From Bacteroidaceae bacterium (lineage in GTDB: Bacteria > Bacteroidota > Bacteroidia > Bacteroidales > Bacteroidaceae), in NCBI GenBank assembly GCA_017483605.1, contig JAFUWG010000010.1, forward strand, positions 22,223 to 86,222: a stretch of 64,000 nucleotides of DNA, written 5' to 3'. Position 1 is the first letter of the stretch. Each line of letters opens with the position of its first letter. The position numbers and the translations under genes are program-made. Under the pieces are notes generated by a model. It was given only the letters and a program-made list of their open reading frames with translations, did no database searches and was not told where the DNA came from. Positions 9,282 through 60,038 of the stretch are shown in pieces.

Positions 9282-9441
9282 AAACAACGAATTTTTCGAA
9301 TTAGACGAATTATTTTGTAGCAATGCCATAAATGGCAACTAATAAAAGCGAATGCCACACGATTGGCATTCGCTTTTATTAGTTGCACCAAAGATGCATG
9401 ATTCCCTAAATAATTCGTCTAATTCGAAAAATTCGTTGTTT
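9282..9441. repeat. Nested perfect palindrome between the convergent rho and lipoprotein genes
   Basis: The outer arms 9282-9315 and 9408-9441 are perfect reverse complements over 34 bp and consist of repeated ACGAATT words. Inside, 9335-9357 and 9364-9386 form a second perfect 23-bp stem with a 6-nt loop. A partial extra copy of the arm start (AACAACGAATTTTTTA) precedes it at 9261. It lies exactly between two converging genes, so it may serve as a bidirectional terminator. Related arms occur at 26686-26851 and 36252-36280. Confidence 0.9.
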
Positions 9442-53954: not shown

Positions 53955-54614
53955 TTAAATGTAATATTCCACCATCTCCACCAATCCTGCCCTCAAGGCA
54001 TACTTCGTCGCCTCATAGACCGTATTCACTCCTATCTTCCTGAAGATGTTCTTCTTGTGCGTCGTGATGGTGTGGATGCTCGAATGCCTGTCTGCCGCAA
54101 TCTCCTTCACCGACTTGCCCAGGGCAATCATCCTCAGCACCTCCGTCTCACTCGCCGTCAACTGGTCACTGCGTTCCTGCGGCATCCGAGGTGTGAGCAG
54201 CAGGTTTGTCACCTGATGGCACAAGAACCGCACCCCCGTGATGGCACACTTCAACGCCGTGGCAATCTCCTGAGCCGAGTCGTCCTTCAGCACCATGCTG
54301 AACTGTTGCTCCACGCTCAGCCGCCTAATCAGTTGCTCCGTCAGTTCCGACGAGAAAAGCACCCACATCGCTTCCGGGAAACGCTCACTCAGGTTCATCA
54401 GTTCCTCGCTGCTGCCCAAGTCAAAGAGCGTGTAGTCAATCACCACCACCGCCGACGGGTTCTCCTTCAGTTCCGCAATCAGTTCCGCACGCCTGCCCAC
54501 CTCCTTCACCTCCAAGTTCTCCACCTCTGCCAAGACACCTCTCACCAGTGTCTTCAGCCCCAGCCGCGTGATATCCTGATTATCCGCTATAATGATTTGC
54601 CTGTTTTCCTTCAT
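53955..54614 (-). CDS. LuxR/NarL family response regulator
   Basis: The ATG at 54614 starts MKENRQIIIADNQDITRLGL, a receiver domain with acidic residues near its start and AVVVIDYTLFD holding the likely phospho-acceptor Asp. After residue 150 comes a LuxR helix-turn-helix: LTASETEVLRMIALGKSVKE, IAADRHSSIHTITTHKKNIF. The 219-residue length is normal. No histidine kinase gene is adjacent, so its partner lies elsewhere. It converges with the preceding gene with no gap. Confidence 0.9.
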   Translation of the reverse strand: MKENRQIIIADNQDITRLGLKTLVRGVLAEVENLEVKEVGRRAELIAELKENPSAVVVIDYTLFDLGSSEELMNLSERFPEAMWVLFSSELTEQLIRRLSVEQQFSMVLKDDSAQEIATALKCAITGVRFLCHQVTNLLLTPRMPQERSDQLTASETEVLRMIALGKSVKEIAADRHSSIHTITTHKKNIFRKIGVNTVYEATKYALRAGLVEMVEYYI

Positions 54615-54772: not shown

Positions 54773-54821
54773 AATACCCTTTCTATGGTATTGGGTATAT
54801 GCAGGATTTTTCGTACCTTTG
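54773..54821 (+). promoter_or_regulatory. Operator O1 and promoter of the TonB-dependent receptor gene
   Basis: Operator AATACC-CTTTCTAT-GGTATT at 54773-54792, whose right end merges with the -33 TTG (54791-54793). Then 20 bp, and TACCTTTG at 54814-54821. The same arrangement recurs at 56821, 57668-57710 and 57714. Confidence 0.75.
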
Positions 54822-54838
54822 CAGCCAAAACAATAACA

Positions 54839-56782
54839 ATGAACACAAAATATCTTCTGGCAGGAGCCTTTTGGATGGTTTGGGTGAACATCACCGCTCA
54901 AACAGATTCGCTTCAATCGCAACGATTGGACGATGTGACCGTGACGGCACACCCTTCGGGTATGCTGCGGATGGGTGGTGCTGAGAATGGCATGAAAATG
55001 GGGCAAGCCGAACTTTTCAAGGCTGCCTGTTGCAATCTGGGCGAGAGTTTCACCACCAATCCGTCTGTAGATGTGAATTATTCGGACGCCACCACAGGAG
55101 CCAAGCAAATCAAACTTTTGGGACTGAGCGGCACCTACGTGCAGATGCTTACCGAGAATCTGCCCAATTTCCGTGGGGCAGCGGCTCCATACGCACTCGA
55201 CTATGTGCCTGGCCCTTGGATGCACAGCATACAAGTGTCCAAGGGAGCCTCTTCCGTTCGCAACGGCTATGAAAGCATCACGGGACAGATTGACATCGAG
55301 TATCTGAAACCCGACGACGAGCAGGGTGCAACCGCCAATCTTTACGGCAACACACTGAGCCGTTTCGAGGCAAATGCTGACGGCAACATCCATCTGGACG
55401 AGCACCTGAGCACGGAAGTGCTGCTGCACTATCAAGACGATTGGGGACATCACGACGAAAATCACGACGGTTTCCTCGACCAACCCAACGTTCAGCAGTA
55501 CAACCTGCAGAACCGTTGGAAATGGCGGGGCGACCGCTACCTTTTCCACGGAGGGTTCTCCCTGCTGAAAGAAGACAGAGACGGCGGACAGACACACCAC
55601 ACATCGCCCAACAATCACCATTTATATAATATAGGTGTAGAGACCCACCGCTACGAGGCGTACATGAAACATGCCTTCATCCTCAACCCCGAACATGGCA
55701 CCAACATTGCCCTCATGGCAAACACGTCGCTGCACCAGATGGATGCCACCTATGGGCAAAAGACCTATAGCGTTGACGAGAAAAACGCCTATGCACAACT
55801 CATGTTCGAAACCAACTTCACCGAGCAACATAACCTCTCGGCAGGTTTCTCTTTCAATCACGACTACCTGACCCAAGACGAACATGAAACCACCCCTGGC
55901 ATCTACGCCCAATACACCTACAATCTGCACGAAAAACTCATTGCCATGGCAGGACTCCGAGCCGACCACAGCAGCCTCTATGGAACCTTCGTCACACCAC
56001 GTCTGCACCTCAAGTACACCCCTGCCGACTTTGTCACCCTCCGACTTTCGGCTGGCAAGGGCTATCGCACCGTCCACGCCCTGGCAGAAAACACCTACCT
56101 CCTGTCGAGCGGACGCACCCTCCTCATCGACCCACTGGAGCAAGAACAGGCTTGGAACTACGGCATCAGCACCGCCTTCTACATTCCTCTTTTCGGCAAG
56201 ACGCTGAAACTCAATGCCGAATACTACCACACCCACTTCCATCAGCAAGCCATCATCGACTACGATACCGCCCCCTCCATTCTCCACATCACCAATCTTG
56301 CCGGCAGGTCTTATTCCAACACCTTCCAAGTCGATGCCACCTATCCCCTCTTCGACGGCCTCGACCTCACCGCCGCCTATCGTTTCAACGATGTGAAGAC
56401 CACCTATGGCGGTCGGCTCATGGAGAAGCCTCTTACCAGCCGCTACAAAGGACTCGTCACGCTGAGTTACAAGACACCATTGGAACTGTGGCAGTTCGAC
56501 CTCACCCTGCAACTCAACGGCGGCGGACGGTTGCCCCAGACACTCGTCGCCTCTCCTACTTCCTTCCATTCTTACGAGCAACTCAACTTCCAAGTCACTC
56601 GTTGGTTCCGCCACTTCTCCATCTACGCAGGCGGCGAAAACCTCACGGGCTTTCGCCAGAAACAAATCATCCTCAATGCCGAAGACCCTTGGAGCAGCAC
56701 CTTCGACCCGACACTGGTGTGGGGACCCGTCCACGGTGCCCTCGGATATGTCGGCATCCGCATCAACATCGGCAAACTCTGA
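54839..56782 (+). CDS. TonB-dependent outer-membrane receptor
   Basis: The ATG at 54839 gives a signal peptide (YLLAGAFWMVWVNITAQ). Plug domain: QRLDDVTVTAHPSG, FKAACCNLGESFTTNPSVDV, TGAKQIKLLGLSGTYVQMLT, YVPGPWMHSIQVSKGASSVR and GYESITGQIDIEY. The beta-barrel follows with many His-rich loops (WGHHDENHDGF, THHTSPNNHH). It lacks the N-terminal carboxypeptidase-like domain of SusC proteins, so a small ligand such as a metal complex, heme or corrinoid is more likely than a glycan. Length 647 residues. Its promoter carries operator O1. Confidence 0.9.
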   Translation: MNTKYLLAGAFWMVWVNITAQTDSLQSQRLDDVTVTAHPSGMLRMGGAENGMKMGQAELFKAACCNLGESFTTNPSVDVNYSDATTGAKQIKLLGLSGTYVQMLTENLPNFRGAAAPYALDYVPGPWMHSIQVSKGASSVRNGYESITGQIDIEYLKPDDEQGATANLYGNTLSRFEANADGNIHLDEHLSTEVLLHYQDDWGHHDENHDGFLDQPNVQQYNLQNRWKWRGDRYLFHGGFSLLKEDRDGGQTHHTSPNNHHLYNIGVETHRYEAYMKHAFILNPEHGTNIALMANTSLHQMDATYGQKTYSVDEKNAYAQLMFETNFTEQHNLSAGFSFNHDYLTQDEHETTPGIYAQYTYNLHEKLIAMAGLRADHSSLYGTFVTPRLHLKYTPADFVTLRLSAGKGYRTVHALAENTYLLSSGRTLLIDPLEQEQAWNYGISTAFYIPLFGKTLKLNAEYYHTHFHQQAIIDYDTAPSILHITNLAGRSYSNTFQVDATYPLFDGLDLTAAYRFNDVKTTYGGRLMEKPLTSRYKGLVTLSYKTPLELWQFDLTLQLNGGGRLPQTLVASPTSFHSYEQLNFQVTRWFRHFSIYAGGENLTGFRQKQIILNAEDPWSSTFDPTLVWGPVHGALGYVGIRINIGKL

Positions 56783-56820
56783 CCCTGAGAACCATATCAA
56801 ACTGGATTGCCTTCCGTGAA

Positions 56821-56869
56821 AATACCACGATTGCGGTATTGCAGGGGAGGGAAAATGTCCGTACCTTTG
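56821..56869 (+). promoter_or_regulatory. Operator O2 and promoter of a candidate small RNA
   Basis: AATACC-ACGATTGC-GGTATT at 56821-56840, TTG at 56839-56841, 20 bp, TACCTTTG at 56862-56869. This is identical in spacing to O1. No ORF follows before the terminator at 57052. Confidence 0.75.
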
Positions 56870-56873
56870 CAGC

Positions 56874-57088
56874 AAATTTCAAAATGTTGTTCACAACATA
56901 GAAGAAAATAAGGTTTTAGGTTATTAGATATTGATTGGTATTAACAAAAGATTTCAATCCAACACAAACACAACCAAATAATTTGTTCTTTTGAACCCAT
57001 AATATTAGATAGATTTGAATGCCATAACAAAGAAACACGCTACACATGCAGACAAGGGCTCTTCGTGATGAAGAGCCCTTGTTTTTTT
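56874..57088 (+). ncRNA. Candidate regulatory small RNA (about 215 nt)
   Basis: The predicted transcript starts about 5 nt after the TACCTTTG box and ends at a very strong terminator (ACAAGGGCTCTTC-GTGAT-GAAGAGCCCTTGT plus seven T, 57052-57088). In between only a 5-codon frame (MLFTT) exists, which overlaps a palindrome ATGTTGT-TC-ACAACAT at 56884-56899. The middle is A/T-rich and unstructured, as expected for a pairing region. Alternatives are a long 3' trailer of the receptor gene or an undetected peptide gene. Confidence 0.5.
57052..57088 (+). terminator. Strong rho-independent terminator
   Basis: A perfect 13-bp stem with a 5-nt loop and seven T on the plus strand. On the minus strand no T run follows, so it acts on plus-strand transcripts. 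Confidence 0.9.
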
Positions 57089-57156
57089 CTTATTCCTCCG
57101 ATGAATGTGCCGAATACCTAAAAAACACTCATTTATGTCCCCCTTATGACTTGTGC

Positions 57157-57618
57157 TTACAACCACTTTTCCATCAATATATCACAACGCTCATAAGCAT
57201 GATTCACCAGAGGGACTTCCTCGAAACCAAGTTTGCGATACAGATGAATGGATGCAGCCAAACGGGTGTTCCCTTCCAGATAGATTCGTTTCACACCTTT
57301 TCGGCGAGCATACACTAAAAGTGCCTGCCCTAATTCATAGCCGATGTGCTTGCCCTGAGCATGAGGTGCAACTGCCATCTTTGCCAATTCATAACAATCC
57401 TTGTCTGGGTGGTTGATGAGGGCACAACACCCCTGCACCTCATCATTTTTCTCATCCACCGCCAAGAATATCTGACCGCCACCTCCTATAATGTAACTGT
57501 CAATGTTTGCAAAAGTCTTCAAGTCCGACTCCTCCAGCCGAAAGTATGTCTCTATCCACTGCCGATTCAGGCGGATGAAGTCTTCTTTATAACGTTCTTC
57601 GTATGTGATGATTGTCAT
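57157..57618 (-). CDS. GNAT family N-acetyltransferase
   Basis: The ATG at 57618 (MTIITYEERYKEDFIRLNRQ) begins a standard GNAT fold. It has GQIFLAVDEKNDEVQGCCAL, the acetyl-CoA loop AVAPHAQGKHIGYELGQALL (Q/RxxGxG/A type) and IYLEGNTRLAASIHLYRKLG with FEEVPL. The 153-residue length is normal. The acceptor is unknown. Its promoter contains operator O3a, which places it in the same regulon as the receptor. Confidence 0.88.
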   Translation of the reverse strand: MTIITYEERYKEDFIRLNRQWIETYFRLEESDLKTFANIDSYIIGGGGQIFLAVDEKNDEVQGCCALINHPDKDCYELAKMAVAPHAQGKHIGYELGQALLVYARRKGVKRIYLEGNTRLAASIHLYRKLGFEEVPLVNHAYERCDILMEKWL

Positions 57619-57660
57619 ATTTTGTTGAAAAAAGATTTTGTCAGTCAAAGAAATCGATTG

Positions 57661-57710
57661 CAAAGGTACAAAAATTTTCCGACACCCGACAATACCACAT
57701 TTATGGTATG
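57661..57710 (-). promoter_or_regulatory. Operator O3a and promoter of the GNAT gene
   Basis: On the minus strand the operator (57710-57691, one mismatch in the outer base) ends in GGTATTG, then 21 bp and TACCTTTG (57668-57661). It is the mirror image of O1 and O2. Confidence 0.65.
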
Positions 57711-57713
57711 GGA

Positions 57714-57762
57714 TTTACCTCATCAAGAGTATTTCGCAGATGGGGAAATGTCCGTACCTTTG
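57714..57762 (+). promoter_or_regulatory. Operator O3b (degenerate) and promoter of the periplasmic binding-type protein gene
   Basis: TTTACC-TCATCAAG-AGTATT at 57714-57733 matches AATACC-N8-GGTATT at 9 of 12 positions. The -7 box TACCTTTG at 57755-57762 lies at exactly the O1/O2 distance. The segment AAATGTCCGTACCTTTGCA is shared with the O2 promoter. Confidence 0.55.
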
Positions 57763-57810: not shown

Positions 57811-58707
57811 ATGCAGAAGGTATTATCTTTGTTTTTAGCGATGGTGCTGACGGGTGCTACGGCATGGGCAGCACAGAACGACGGTGTCATCACCGTGAAG
57901 ACCAACAAGGCAGGACGTCCGTTGGTGGAAAAATGGGCAGAGGTGTACAAGACGGTGCATCCTGAAGTACAGATTGAGGTGGTGTCAGCCAAGGTGAAAG
58001 AGGCCGACTTGACACTGGTGAACGCTCCCGTGGAGGGCACGAACGTGACGTGGGTGGGCAGATTTGCCCTGTTGCCCATCACGGCGAAGAAGAATCCGCT
58101 GAGGGAGGACATCGAGAAGAAAACATGGTCGGCAAAGGACTTCAAGCGGCTCTTCTTTGCGGATGAAGAGTTGGACGAGGAAGAACTGGACGGCACCAAG
58201 AGCAAGAAAGAGAAACTGGCTGACAAGTTGACGGTTTACACAGGCAGCCACAGCACGAGTTGGACACCTGCACTGGCGGCTTACTTCGGGCACACGAAGG
58301 ATGACGTGAAGGGCAACAAGGTGGCTGGCGACGACTACTATCTGCTCAACGCCATCGAGGAGGAGCCCACCGCTGTCACATTCTCCTCATTGACATTTCT
58401 CTACGACCTCCAATCGCGTTCCATCCGTCAAAACATCACCTTGCTACCCCTTAATGTCAAAAAAGAGCAAGGCGAGGCACTCCGTTCGGGCAATTTGGAC
58501 GAGACCATCCAACTGCTTGAAACGCAACACTTCGACACCATCCCCGTAGAGAATGTCGGTTTCACCTACCAGGCTTTTGACAATGACATTGACCAGTTCC
58601 TCGCATGGGTGCTGAACGAAGGACAGCAATACAACAACGAGCAAGGTTTCCTCCGCTTAGCAGAGAAAGACATCAAGCAACAAATCAAACTGCTGGCAAA
58701 CCGATAG
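57811..58707 (+). CDS. Periplasmic PstS-like substrate-binding protein
   Basis: A signal peptide (LFLAMVLTGATAWA) is followed by VITVKTNKAGRPLVEKWAEV, VKEADLTLVNAPVEGTNVTW, RFALLPITAKKNPL, and later LTVYTGSHSTSWTPALAAYF. This layout is that of PstS/PBP-like-2 periplasmic binding proteins, with the TGSxS-type loop that often holds an anion or metal complex. No permease or ATPase gene follows, so it may deliver a ligand from the outer-membrane receptor to a transporter encoded elsewhere. Length 298 residues. It has a promoter of the O-type regulon. Confidence 0.68.
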   Translation: MQKVLSLFLAMVLTGATAWAAQNDGVITVKTNKAGRPLVEKWAEVYKTVHPEVQIEVVSAKVKEADLTLVNAPVEGTNVTWVGRFALLPITAKKNPLREDIEKKTWSAKDFKRLFFADEELDEEELDGTKSKKEKLADKLTVYTGSHSTSWTPALAAYFGHTKDDVKGNKVAGDDYYLLNAIEEEPTAVTFSSLTFLYDLQSRSIRQNITLLPLNVKKEQGEALRSGNLDETIQLLETQHFDTIPVENVGFTYQAFDNDIDQFLAWVLNEGQQYNNEQGFLRLAEKDIKQQIKLLANR

Positions 58708-58808: not shown

Positions 58809-60038
58809 ATGAAAGAAAACAACAAAAAAACATCACAAGGGCGTCAACTCATTCTGTGGATTGGCGCTCTCGTTGTAGGTACGGTGCTCGGCTATCTGGG
58901 CATCGCCTGGCTCGATGGGCTGTTCCAGTTTGTGGCATCGGTCTATACACGCCTGTTCCAGTTGGTGGCGGTGCCGACCATCGCTCTGGCTGTGGTCACT
59001 ACGCTGTCGTCGTTGGGCGGCAGGAAGGATACGGGTCGCATTTTTCTGCACACACTCACATACACGCTGCTGACCACGGTGGCGGCAGCGGTAGTGGGAT
59101 TGGTGTTATTCCTGACCGTGAAGCCAGAAAATCTGCCCGTGGAGGTGTGGGAGAAGGAAAGCATCGGCGAGGTGGGGGAAAAGATGGAAGGATGGACATA
59201 CTATGACCATATTCTGAACGTCGTGCCCAACAACATCATTGAGCCTTTTGACCAAGGGAACGTACTGAGCATCCTCATCATTGCCGCCGCGGTGGGCTTG
59301 GCACTGGCTTTCATGAAGAAAAGCGAAGAGGTGCAGGTGCTCATCAAGGGCATTTTCGGATTGCAGGAACTGCTCTTCACGCTCATCAAGGCACTCATCT
59401 GGACCCTACCTGTGGGCATCGTCGCCTTTGCCGCCCAGTTGTCGGCACAGGTGGAGGCAGGTGTTATTGTGGGGTCGCTTGGGAAGTATGTTGCCGTCAT
59501 CTTGGGTGGCAACGCCATCCAGTTCTTCGTCGTGCTGTCCCTCTTCCTTTTGAGCCGAGGGGTGAACCCTTGGCGAGTGCTGAAAGCCATGTCGCCAGCG
59601 GTGCTCATGGCACTTTTCACCAAAAGTTCGGCTGCCACACTGCCAGTCACGATGCAGTCAGCCGAAGAACGTTTGGGCGTGAAGCCCGAGGTGGCACGAT
59701 TTGTGCTGCCCATCTGCACCACCATCAACATGAACGGATGTGCGGCGTTCATTCTCGTCACGTCCCTCTTCGTCATGCAGAACGGCGGCACCGTGCTCAC
59801 AGTGCCCACCATGCTGTTGTGGGCACTCATCGCCGTCGTTTCAGCCATCGGCAACGCCGGCGTACCGATGGGGTGCTATTTCCTCACGCTCTCGCTCATG
59901 GCTGGCATCGGGGCTCCCATCGGCATCATGGGCATCATCTTGCCCATCTTCACCATCATCGACATGGTGGAAACGGCAGAGAACGTATGGAGTGATTCGT
60001 GCGTCTGTGCAATGACCCATAACGACCTCCAAAAATAG
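58809..60038 (+). CDS. Dicarboxylate/amino acid:cation symporter (DAACS family)
   Basis: A 409-residue inner-membrane protein with the GltPh-type organisation. It has hydrophobic segments from the start, the serine-rich hairpin FTKSSAATLPVTMQSAEERL, the central transport motif VLPICTTINMNGCA (NMNG), and AVVSAIGNAGVPMGCYFLTL near the second hairpin. It takes up C4-dicarboxylates or acidic amino acids with Na+ or H+. It stands alone with its own promoter. Confidence 0.92.
   Translation: MKENNKKTSQGRQLILWIGALVVGTVLGYLGIAWLDGLFQFVASVYTRLFQLVAVPTIALAVVTTLSSLGGRKDTGRIFLHTLTYTLLTTVAAAVVGLVLFLTVKPENLPVEVWEKESIGEVGEKMEGWTYYDHILNVVPNNIIEPFDQGNVLSILIIAAAVGLALAFMKKSEEVQVLIKGIFGLQELLFTLIKALIWTLPVGIVAFAAQLSAQVEAGVIVGSLGKYVAVILGGNAIQFFVVLSLFLLSRGVNPWRVLKAMSPAVLMALFTKSSAATLPVTMQSAEERLGVKPEVARFVLPICTTINMNGCAAFILVTSLFVMQNGGTVLTVPTMLLWALIAVVSAIGNAGVPMGCYFLTLSLMAGIGAPIGIMGIILPIFTIIDMVETAENVWSDSCVCAMTHNDLQK

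Follow-up and report, generated by a model that had tools for sequence, protein, structure and literature searches.

The stretch of DNA examined here (the window) is 64,000 nucleotides long and comes from a Bacteroidaceae bacterium (GenBank assembly GCA_017483605.1, contig JAFUWG010000010.1, positions 22,223 to 86,222 of the forward strand). This text concerns a palindromic element, AATACC-N8-GGTATT, that precedes several genes in the window, and a gene for a LuxR/NarL-type regulator that lies beside the first copy of the element and is divergent from the gene for a TonB-dependent receptor. The features of the locus are as follows, with the source of each assignment in brackets.

53955..54614, minus strand: NarL/LuxR-type response regulator with a GerE helix-turn-helix and an atypical receiver, candidate binder of the operator (Pfam, homologues, model)
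54773..54792, plus strand: proximal operator, AATACCCTTTCTATGGTATT, in the TonB receptor promoter (sequence, pattern search)
54814..54821, plus strand: -7 box TACCTTTG of the TonB receptor gene (sequence; fits the Bacteroides consensus TAnnTTTG)
54839..56782, plus strand: TonB-dependent receptor, 647 amino acids, 31 histidines (Pfam, histidine count)
56821..56840, plus strand: proximal operator in the promoter of a possible non-coding RNA (sequence, pattern search)
56862..56869, plus strand: -7 box TACCTTTG of the possible RNA gene (sequence)
56870..57085, plus strand: possible small RNA with an intrinsic-terminator-like hairpin at 57050-57084 (terminator scan, fold)
57157..57618, minus strand: GNAT acetyltransferase (Pfam)
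57661..57668, minus strand: -7 box of the GNAT gene, TACCTTTG on this strand (sequence)
57691..57710, either strand: shared operator, distal and of high quality for the PstS-like gene (plus), proximal for the GNAT gene (minus) (sequence)
57714..57733, plus strand: proximal degenerate operator of the PstS-like promoter, TTTACC-N8-AGTATT, the second half of a tandem (sequence)
57755..57762, plus strand: -7 box of the PstS-like gene (sequence)
57811..58707, plus strand: PstS-like protein, 298 amino acids (tblastn to orthologues)
58809..60038, plus strand: SDF-family symporter adjoining the PstS-like gene (Pfam SDF, 2.8e-88)

Operators in the window and its genome

There are four copies of the element at this locus, at 54773-54792 and 56821-56840 (no mismatches), 57691-57710 (one mismatch) and 57714-57733 (degenerate), exactly as the first-pass annotation of this DNA had placed them. 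When two mismatches are allowed the window holds five matches, compared with a mean of 1.29 in shuffled sequences, and five were reached in none of 100 shuffles. The other two matches, at 9351 and 19973 with two mismatches each, are likely due to chance.

A promoter type described for Bacteroides carries TAnnTTTG at -7 and TTTG near -33 (PMC7366714). In the window, 21 nucleotides separate the operator from TACCTTTG at 54773, 56821 and 57714, and 22 nucleotides separate the 57691 site from the minus-strand box of the GNAT gene, so the fixed distance that had been proposed holds at all four. The 22 and 23 base pairs reported earlier were measured from the last operator base to the first box base, whereas gaps given here are the nucleotides between them. 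Read on the plus strand, the 57691 site lies 44 nucleotides from TACCTTTG, and the operators at 57691 and 57714 start 23 base pairs apart. These two sites are not independent operators: together they make up the tandem of the PstS-like gene, and the divergent GNAT promoter also uses the 57691 site. The earlier view of four separate operators is thus retained for the shared operator sequence at every site, and revised for their number. The core of the 57691 site, TACCACATTTATGGTA, recurs unchanged in sites that precede cysK in two genomes from a different genus (G245 and G269; G and L numbers designate genomes and loci).

The genome itself (G000) is a metagenome-assembled genome of 3,060,871 bases in 56 contigs and is 81.5% complete. 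With at most one mismatch the element occurs in only three places, all within the same 3-kb stretch (54773, 56821 and 57691) and each at promoter spacing, compared with one place for a reversed control pattern. This rarity and clustering, seen in the genome-wide search that had been suggested as a check, speak for a real regulon. We also scored the genome with a profile built from 34 sites, a partly circular procedure because these include three window sites and one further site of this genome, on contig C3. The highest scores are 41.8, 39.7, 37.2 (C3:25724), 33.0 and 22.8 bits, the last of these for the GNAT site, which is not set apart by the profile because the next match, a partial one, scores 20.8 bits. 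Outside the window, this genome carries a site in the interval that separates a PF03417 gene from a PF03313 gene divergent to it (L075; Pfam). Its cysK gene (G000:C36, L313) is preceded by a diverged site, TACCACAAATAGGGTA, located 51 nucleotides from TACCTTTG, and the orthologous sites in G081 and G169 have a gap of 50 nucleotides.

Spacing classes and tandem architecture across the family

The comparison set comprises 301 genomes of the family, which were searched with the pattern TACCAY-N4-RTGGTA-N{20,50}-TAnnTTTG, wherein a palindrome can score on both strands. There are matches in 70 genomes; 142 matches are listed for the pattern, compared with 16, by our own tally, for its reversed control. 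The gaps to the -7 box in these 142 matches are 23 (29 matches), 24 (3), 45 (35), 46 (39), 47 (5), 49 (12) and 50 (4), with all other gaps between 20 and 50 together accounting for 15. A similar distribution is seen among 80 named loci of regulator homologues, the best 80 of at least 561 confirmed stretches, of which 41 have a site. With a slightly wider core these loci yield 63 gaps, namely 23 (23 cases), 45 (28), 46 (5) and 7 others. The step from 23 to 45 is 22 base pairs, or about two helical turns.

A distal TACC-N8-GGTA at a gap of 45 or 46 is present in 78 distinct promoters of the collected loci, and 19 of these are less than 60% identical to one another between the site and the -7 box. 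Loci L004-L033 were excluded from the tandem-site and promoter-context counts, and counts from the first broad pattern were not used for any claim about sulfur, because that pattern picks up a second, iron-like motif along with this operator. With positions numbered from the -7 box, T(-39), C(-36), G(-27), A(-24) and T(-23) are invariant in all 19 dissimilar promoters, and T(-22) is present in 17. An A-rich linker (-40 to -43) is kept in 15-17 of the 19, whereas agreement at any position between -1 and -21 is limited to 11 of 19 at most. The invariant positions persist when loci fetched by proximal patterns are left out (18 of 18) and when only loci fetched by protein are used (14 of 14). Because these proximal positions are invariant across dissimilar promoters, they point to a weaker second operator, TnnC-N8-GnnATT, at the -42 position.

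One alternative is that the fixed spacing within the genus of the window reflects recent copying of one promoter cassette, and that the regulon is a by-product of duplication. The promoters of the possible RNA and of the PstS-like gene are 91% identical over 35 nucleotides, and GAAATGTCCGTACCTTTG is common to many promoters of this genus. Other genera, however, keep the spacings with dissimilar spacers, as in the 19 promoters described above. Cassette copying is therefore contradicted for the family as a whole, although some copies in the window may fit it, and as a general explanation we give it hardly any weight.

The three single-site promoters of the window (TonB receptor, RNA and GNAT) have the strong core in the proximal position. 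The position near -42, which had been likened to that of a class II activator, agrees with the gap-23 peak of the family; this placement assumes a transcription start 4-8 nucleotides past the -7 box. A site of the MerR type, between -35 and -10, was rejected on position. The clustered gaps and the free intervening sequence, together with a proximal site that merges with the -33 element and a distal one set back by two turns, agree with an activator of class II or of class I and class II combined.

These features suggest the following mechanism. A regulator dimer would bind the 16-base-pair palindrome TACCAYA-N2-TRTGGTA. At single-site promoters such as the three in the window, the dimer would sit at about -42, wherein the right half of its site runs into the -33 TTG, and could touch the sigma factor or RNA polymerase as a class II activator does. 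At tandem promoters (the PstS-like promoter here, and cysK, OAHS (O-acetylhomoserine sulfhydrylase), PstS and SusD types elsewhere), one dimer may occupy a good palindrome at the distal position, two helical turns further up, from where it would help a second dimer onto the weak proximal TnnC-N8-GnnATT, which would result in cooperative activation.

The same regulator and operator could instead serve repression, in which case the protein would cover the -33 region when cysteine is plentiful and be released on starvation. The proximal site does overlap the -33 element, and sulfur repressors such as CymR act in this manner. However, a repressor does not need one exact distance, yet the gaps cluster at 23 and 45/46 nucleotides over otherwise dissimilar promoters. 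Moreover, the distal site leaves the core promoter free, and proteins of the NarL/LuxR type are mostly activators. The fixed gaps favour activation, in keeping with the first-pass annotation, which had preferred activation while allowing for a repressor, and we regard repression as unlikely.

The LuxR/NarL-type regulator

The C-terminal part of the regulator is a GerE/LuxR helix-turn-helix (PF00196, 1.3e-15, above the cut-off). Its N-terminal part has no Pfam receiver match at an E value of 0.001, although a receiver fold is indicated by full-length alignment to VraR, RcsB and NarL and by a model match to LiaR, VraR and RcsB. The closest sequences of solved structures are VraR/LiaR, RcsB and NarL. 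The AF2 model has a pLDDT of 83, with full-length TM values of about 0.5-0.6 and TMt values of 0.75-0.80 for receiver-only chains. In 15 of 15 aligned homologues D12, D61, S89 and K111 are invariant, and the second acidic position of the receiver is N in 13, A in one and P in one. No histidine kinase was noticed beside the regulator among the open reading frames of the loci read, and a genome-wide search for one was not made. The protein is not a NarL orthologue, since it scores 49.8 bits against the NCBIfam model NF007935, whose cut-off is 250.

NarL, RcsB, VraR/LiaR and DevR of the NarL/FixJ group share with this protein a receiver-like domain joined to a GerE helix-turn-helix. The window regulator differs from them in its roughly 25% identity to the best structural matches, in the replaced second acidic residue and in its sulfur-related targets. 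NarL sites have a 7-2-7 arrangement, and the 16-base-pair palindrome has that size. Activators of the lux type sit at -42.

A homologue of the regulator (E <= 1e-20, a threshold that was also used for other families) is present in 100 of the 301 family genomes. A promoter with the operator at a peak gap is found in 61 of these 100 genomes, compared with only 3 of the 201 that lack a homologue (G062, G080 and G258). Genomes with off-peak matches only serve as an internal control and show no such association (1 of 100 and 5 of 201, respectively). A second set of 61 genomes, 37 from the genus of the window and 24 from other families, was searched with the pattern TANS-N8-GGKATT-N21-TAMCTTTG. Within the genus, where homologues were called at E <= 1e-70, the regulator is present in 27 genomes. 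The pattern occurs in all 27 of these and in one of the remaining 10, and its reversed control has no match in any of the 61 genomes. The lone exception in the genus (G225) has a site that resembles the look-alike motif described below and is upstream of a gene that is porin-like by eye. Operator and regulator gene are also close to each other in many cases, with no more than 20 kb between a regulator gene and 47 of 127 peak-gap sites.

The first-pass annotation had suggested a dimer of the Crp/Fnr type. Both the co-occurrence and the neighbourhood point instead to the adjacent LuxR/NarL-type protein, as does the NarL-like size of the 16-base-pair TACC-N8-GGTA core. This linked regulator has by Pfam a GerE domain and neither a cyclic nucleotide (cNMP) domain nor a LysR or Rrf2 fold. 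A separate open reading frame in L072 looks Rrf2-like by eye. One possibility is that another transcription factor, of the Crp/Fnr type or any unlinked kind, binds the operator, and that the LuxR-type gene is a passenger or a target of a sulfur cluster. Operators do precede regulator genes in three distinct cases (L051, L073/L074 and L124/L125), so the regulator could be a target only, and our genome-wide screen covered this regulator alone. Set against this are the co-occurrence in both the family and the genus and the GerE domain of the linked candidate, and we consider another binder rather improbable.

Autoregulation of the window's own regulator was considered and rejected. Its minus-strand -7 box (TAACTTTG, 54659-54652), when read by eye, has no operator at a regular distance.

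Target genes and the sulfur theme

The collected loci contain 133 distinct promoter contexts with the operator, and 87 of them match a gene panel: cysK (28), PstS-like (22), OAHS (17), MnmA (6), NhaC (5), CysE (3), SusC (3), MoeB (2) and TonB (1). These counts are descriptions rather than tests because the panel was compiled from the same loci, which had themselves been retrieved through the motif or the regulator. Among the 46 unmatched contexts, 40 were read by eye and comprise 18 SusD-type genes, 7 other lipoproteins, 5 regulator genes and 10 that are other or unreadable. The identifications rest on Pfam for cysK, OAHS and MnmA, and on inspection by eye for cysE, MoeB and the SusD types. 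Sites are located upstream of cysK, cysE, OAHS or sulfate-assimilation genes in several genera, as expected of a sulfur/cysteine regulon, and in a Bacteroides-type genus they precede cysK, cysE, OAHS and MnmA.

The surroundings of the regulator gene tell a similar story. Panel genes for cysteine, methionine or sulfur metabolism lie within 7 kb in 46 of the 80 named loci, 6 of which have MnmA alone. In relatives of the same genus the regulator adjoins OAHS-like and cysK-like genes (Pfam), and MoeB/ThiF-, MoaD-, TusA-like and JAMM-type genes stand beside it (by eye). In L073 a site is located upstream of a regulator paralogue that is followed by a sulfite-reductase-like gene (NIR_SIR and TusA), with CysDN-like and CysH-like genes further along (by eye), and another site precedes a porin-like gene and PstS-like ABC genes. 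Of the loci read, L072 is the most distant. Behind its regulator homologue, of 34% identity, come cysK, the gene of a PBP_like_2 protein, ABC genes and a gene with a PAPS-reductase domain, and CysDN-like genes adjoin; no site in L072 passed the operator scan. In L086 and L095 a site precedes an NhaC-like transporter gene and a PF03313 gene (Pfam on the L086 gene only), which we take to be of the cysteine-desulfidase type.

We consider it likely, on this combined evidence, that the sites are operators of a sulfur/cysteine regulon of the Bacteroidales, bound and activated by the adjacent orphan NarL/LuxR-type regulator and induced by shortage. Induction by a lack of sulfur or cysteine is suggested because the targets are biosynthetic. 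The regulator would become active when cysteine or reduced sulfur is short, which would raise cysteine synthesis, C-S lyases, outer-membrane import and thiol use.

The suggestion of an iron, copper, zinc, heme or corrinoid theme in the first-pass annotation is not borne out, since the recurring targets are cysteine and sulfur genes. Nevertheless, a metal (iron or copper) regulon with the receptor and its His-rich loops as the main target deserves consideration. A look-alike motif, TACCTA-N4-TAGGTATTG, lies in front of feoB-like, TonB receptor, porin-like and metal-ATPase-like genes (by eye; L004, L007, L009 and L013), and palindrome sites are found upstream of a small Cys-rich open reading frame and a CusA-like gene (by eye; L022 and L032). 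However, the palindrome of the window type, with A after TACC and T before GGTA, is chiefly located before cysK, PstS-like and OAHS genes in the 87 classified contexts of 133, and neither of the two TonB receptor orthologues read has kept the site. A metal regulon is therefore very unlikely in our judgement.

Two observations on these other sites are worth recording. The look-alike occurs in other genera at the same distance from TAnnTTTG (L004, L007, L013 and L029, before genes that by eye are feoB-like, TonB receptor and porin-like) and seems to mark a distinct regulon of the iron type whose promoters share this geometry. The sites at L022:1501 and L032:1501 are perfect palindromes, and the small Cys-rich open reading frame and CusA-like efflux gene behind them are not obviously sulfur genes.

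Several findings weigh against the proposed sulfur regulon or parts of it. The Fisher value for co-occurrence in the family (p ~5e-33) is too strong, as are such values generally here, because the genomes are related. The strict palindrome at a peak gap is missing from 39 of the 100 regulator-bearing genomes, and 39 of the 80 named loci have no site. In other families the pattern occurs in 5 of 24 genomes, only two of which have a homologue, and two further homologue-bearers lack the pattern. The genus pattern was broadened only after the sites at regulator loci were known, and the gene panel was derived from the loci themselves. A scan for the class II arrangement (gaps of 20-22 after GGTATT, at most two mismatches) found no site in 20 regulator loci of other genera, although several of these do carry distal-gap sites. 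The gap peak at 49-51, to which cysE divergent from cysK and this genus's own cysK belong, does not differ from 23 by an integral number of helical turns. The PstS-like tandem of the window has A instead of G at -27, where 14 of 15 distinct gap-46 windows have G. No panel gene for cysteine, methionine or sulfur metabolism is seen in 34 of the 80 named loci. Enzymes of the cysteine-desulfidase type (PF03313) degrade cysteine and could instead suggest induction by cysteine; as targets they are either a point against induction by shortage or a sign of scavenging. Finally, the operator is absent upstream of both 81% orthologues of the TonB receptor that were read (L086 and L092), and in a blastn search of all collected loci the possible small RNA is unmatched beyond its promoter stretch and terminator-like stretch.

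The TonB and small-RNA targets thus look local. The L086 copy of the receptor gene is beside the NhaC-like and PF03313 operon, and the window receptor has no sequence relative in the PDB at an E value of 0.01 and no specific family above cut-off. The RNA region has a fold z-score of -4.3 (56876-57085), no Rfam match up to an E value of 0.1 and no long open reading frame within 56870-57085. A terminator scan found its 57050-57084 hairpin, although hairpins overall are no more frequent than in shuffled sequences.

The other two targets have wider associations. Homologues of the GNAT protein with 53-59% identity lie within OAHS-GNAT-MnmA clusters of L251, L277 and L278 (tblastn), and the GNAT of L126 is confirmed by Pfam. 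Orthologues of the PstS-like gene lie near the regulator gene in relatives and bear the tandem operator, and their promoters are about 76-82% identical to that of the window over 79-104 nucleotides among the matches listed (e.g. L084, L087, L089 and L091-L093). Conservation upstream of orthologues, which had been named as a check, is therefore seen for the PstS-like gene and not for the TonB receptor. The PstS-like protein has no Pfam match of its own, its AF2 model is too poor to use (pLDDT 48), and it is 23% similar to the PBP_like_2 protein located between cysK and the PAPS-reductase-domain gene in L072. The adjoining SDF gene is beside the PstS-like gene in L065 as well. Its matches in Pfam, NCBIfam and the PDB are dicarboxylate and amino-acid transporters only, and a role in cystine transport is a guess.

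Other genes in these clusters should also be noted. Family-2 encapsulin and its cysteine desulfurase cargo (NF041162/NF041163, NF041166) are each found in the regulator cluster of 6 of the 80 named loci. At L084:978-4014 and L095:16650-19000 an encapsulin with a cNMP domain adjoins the cargo gene within the sulfur cluster of the regulator, and the L084 protein scores above the NCBIfam cut-off for 2A as well as that for 2B. A system in which a family 2A encapsulin has a cysteine desulfurase as its cargo has been described (PMC8049743). Genes of this kind are neighbours of the regulator in several relatives only and are not beside the regulator in the window, and no operator was seen directly before an encapsulin gene. 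Lipoproteins of one family, marked by a DVDCCSAEEALQVYKF-like motif, are repeatedly encoded behind the tandem operator (L082:16102-17049, L095:291-1289 and L230), and a tandem-type site at L224:1501 (G028) is upstream of a radical-SAM gene that by eye resembles an anaerobic sulfatase-maturating enzyme.

Neither the protein superfamily nor the notion of a sulfur regulon is new. CysB, a LysR-type protein, is the sulfur regulator of Gammaproteobacteria, and CymR, of the Rrf2 type, is that of Firmicutes. Both control cysK, cysE, sulfate assimilation and thiol uptake, as would the regulon described here, which differs in its unrelated protein family and operator and in its tandem strong and weak operators locked to the -7/-33 promoter of Bacteroidota. 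The cysteine desulfidase operon of E. coli likewise pairs a transporter with a PF03313 gene, as in L086 and L095, and has a cysteine-related regulator, CyuR/DecR, which is of the Lrp/AsnC type there and NarL-type here. An iron-stimulon table annotates BT2387 of B. thetaiotaomicron as an O-acetylhomoserine aminocarboxypropyltransferase (PMC10434189). In the top-ranked matches of a literature search that covered mostly journals without subscription, there was no Bacteroidales regulator of cysteine, sulfide or thiol metabolism, nor this pairing, operator or tandem architecture.

A broader model can be put forward only tentatively, and we would not call it probable. Perhaps the regulator is an order-wide sulfur master regulator of the Bacteroidales, a NarL-type protein whose receiver is no longer a classical phospho-switch and reads a metabolite of the cysteine pathway. 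Acting through a strong distal and a weak proximal dimer two turns apart, it might wire cysteine synthesis and breakdown, TonB/SusCD import and the neighbouring encapsulin-cysteine desulfurase genes into one circuit.

The defined operator, the candidate protein and the spacing rule make the proposed regulon testable in genetically tractable Bacteroides. They also describe a promoter grammar, consisting of a good distal site, a weak proximal site and a fixed 21 nucleotides to the -7 box, in a phylum with an unusual sigma factor, and they offer a functional lead for PstS-like, GNAT, TonB and SusCD proteins that are otherwise unassigned. In the flora of the mammalian gut and rumen the Bacteroidales are a major group, and the way they handle cysteine, sulfide and thiols affects H2S and neighbouring organisms.

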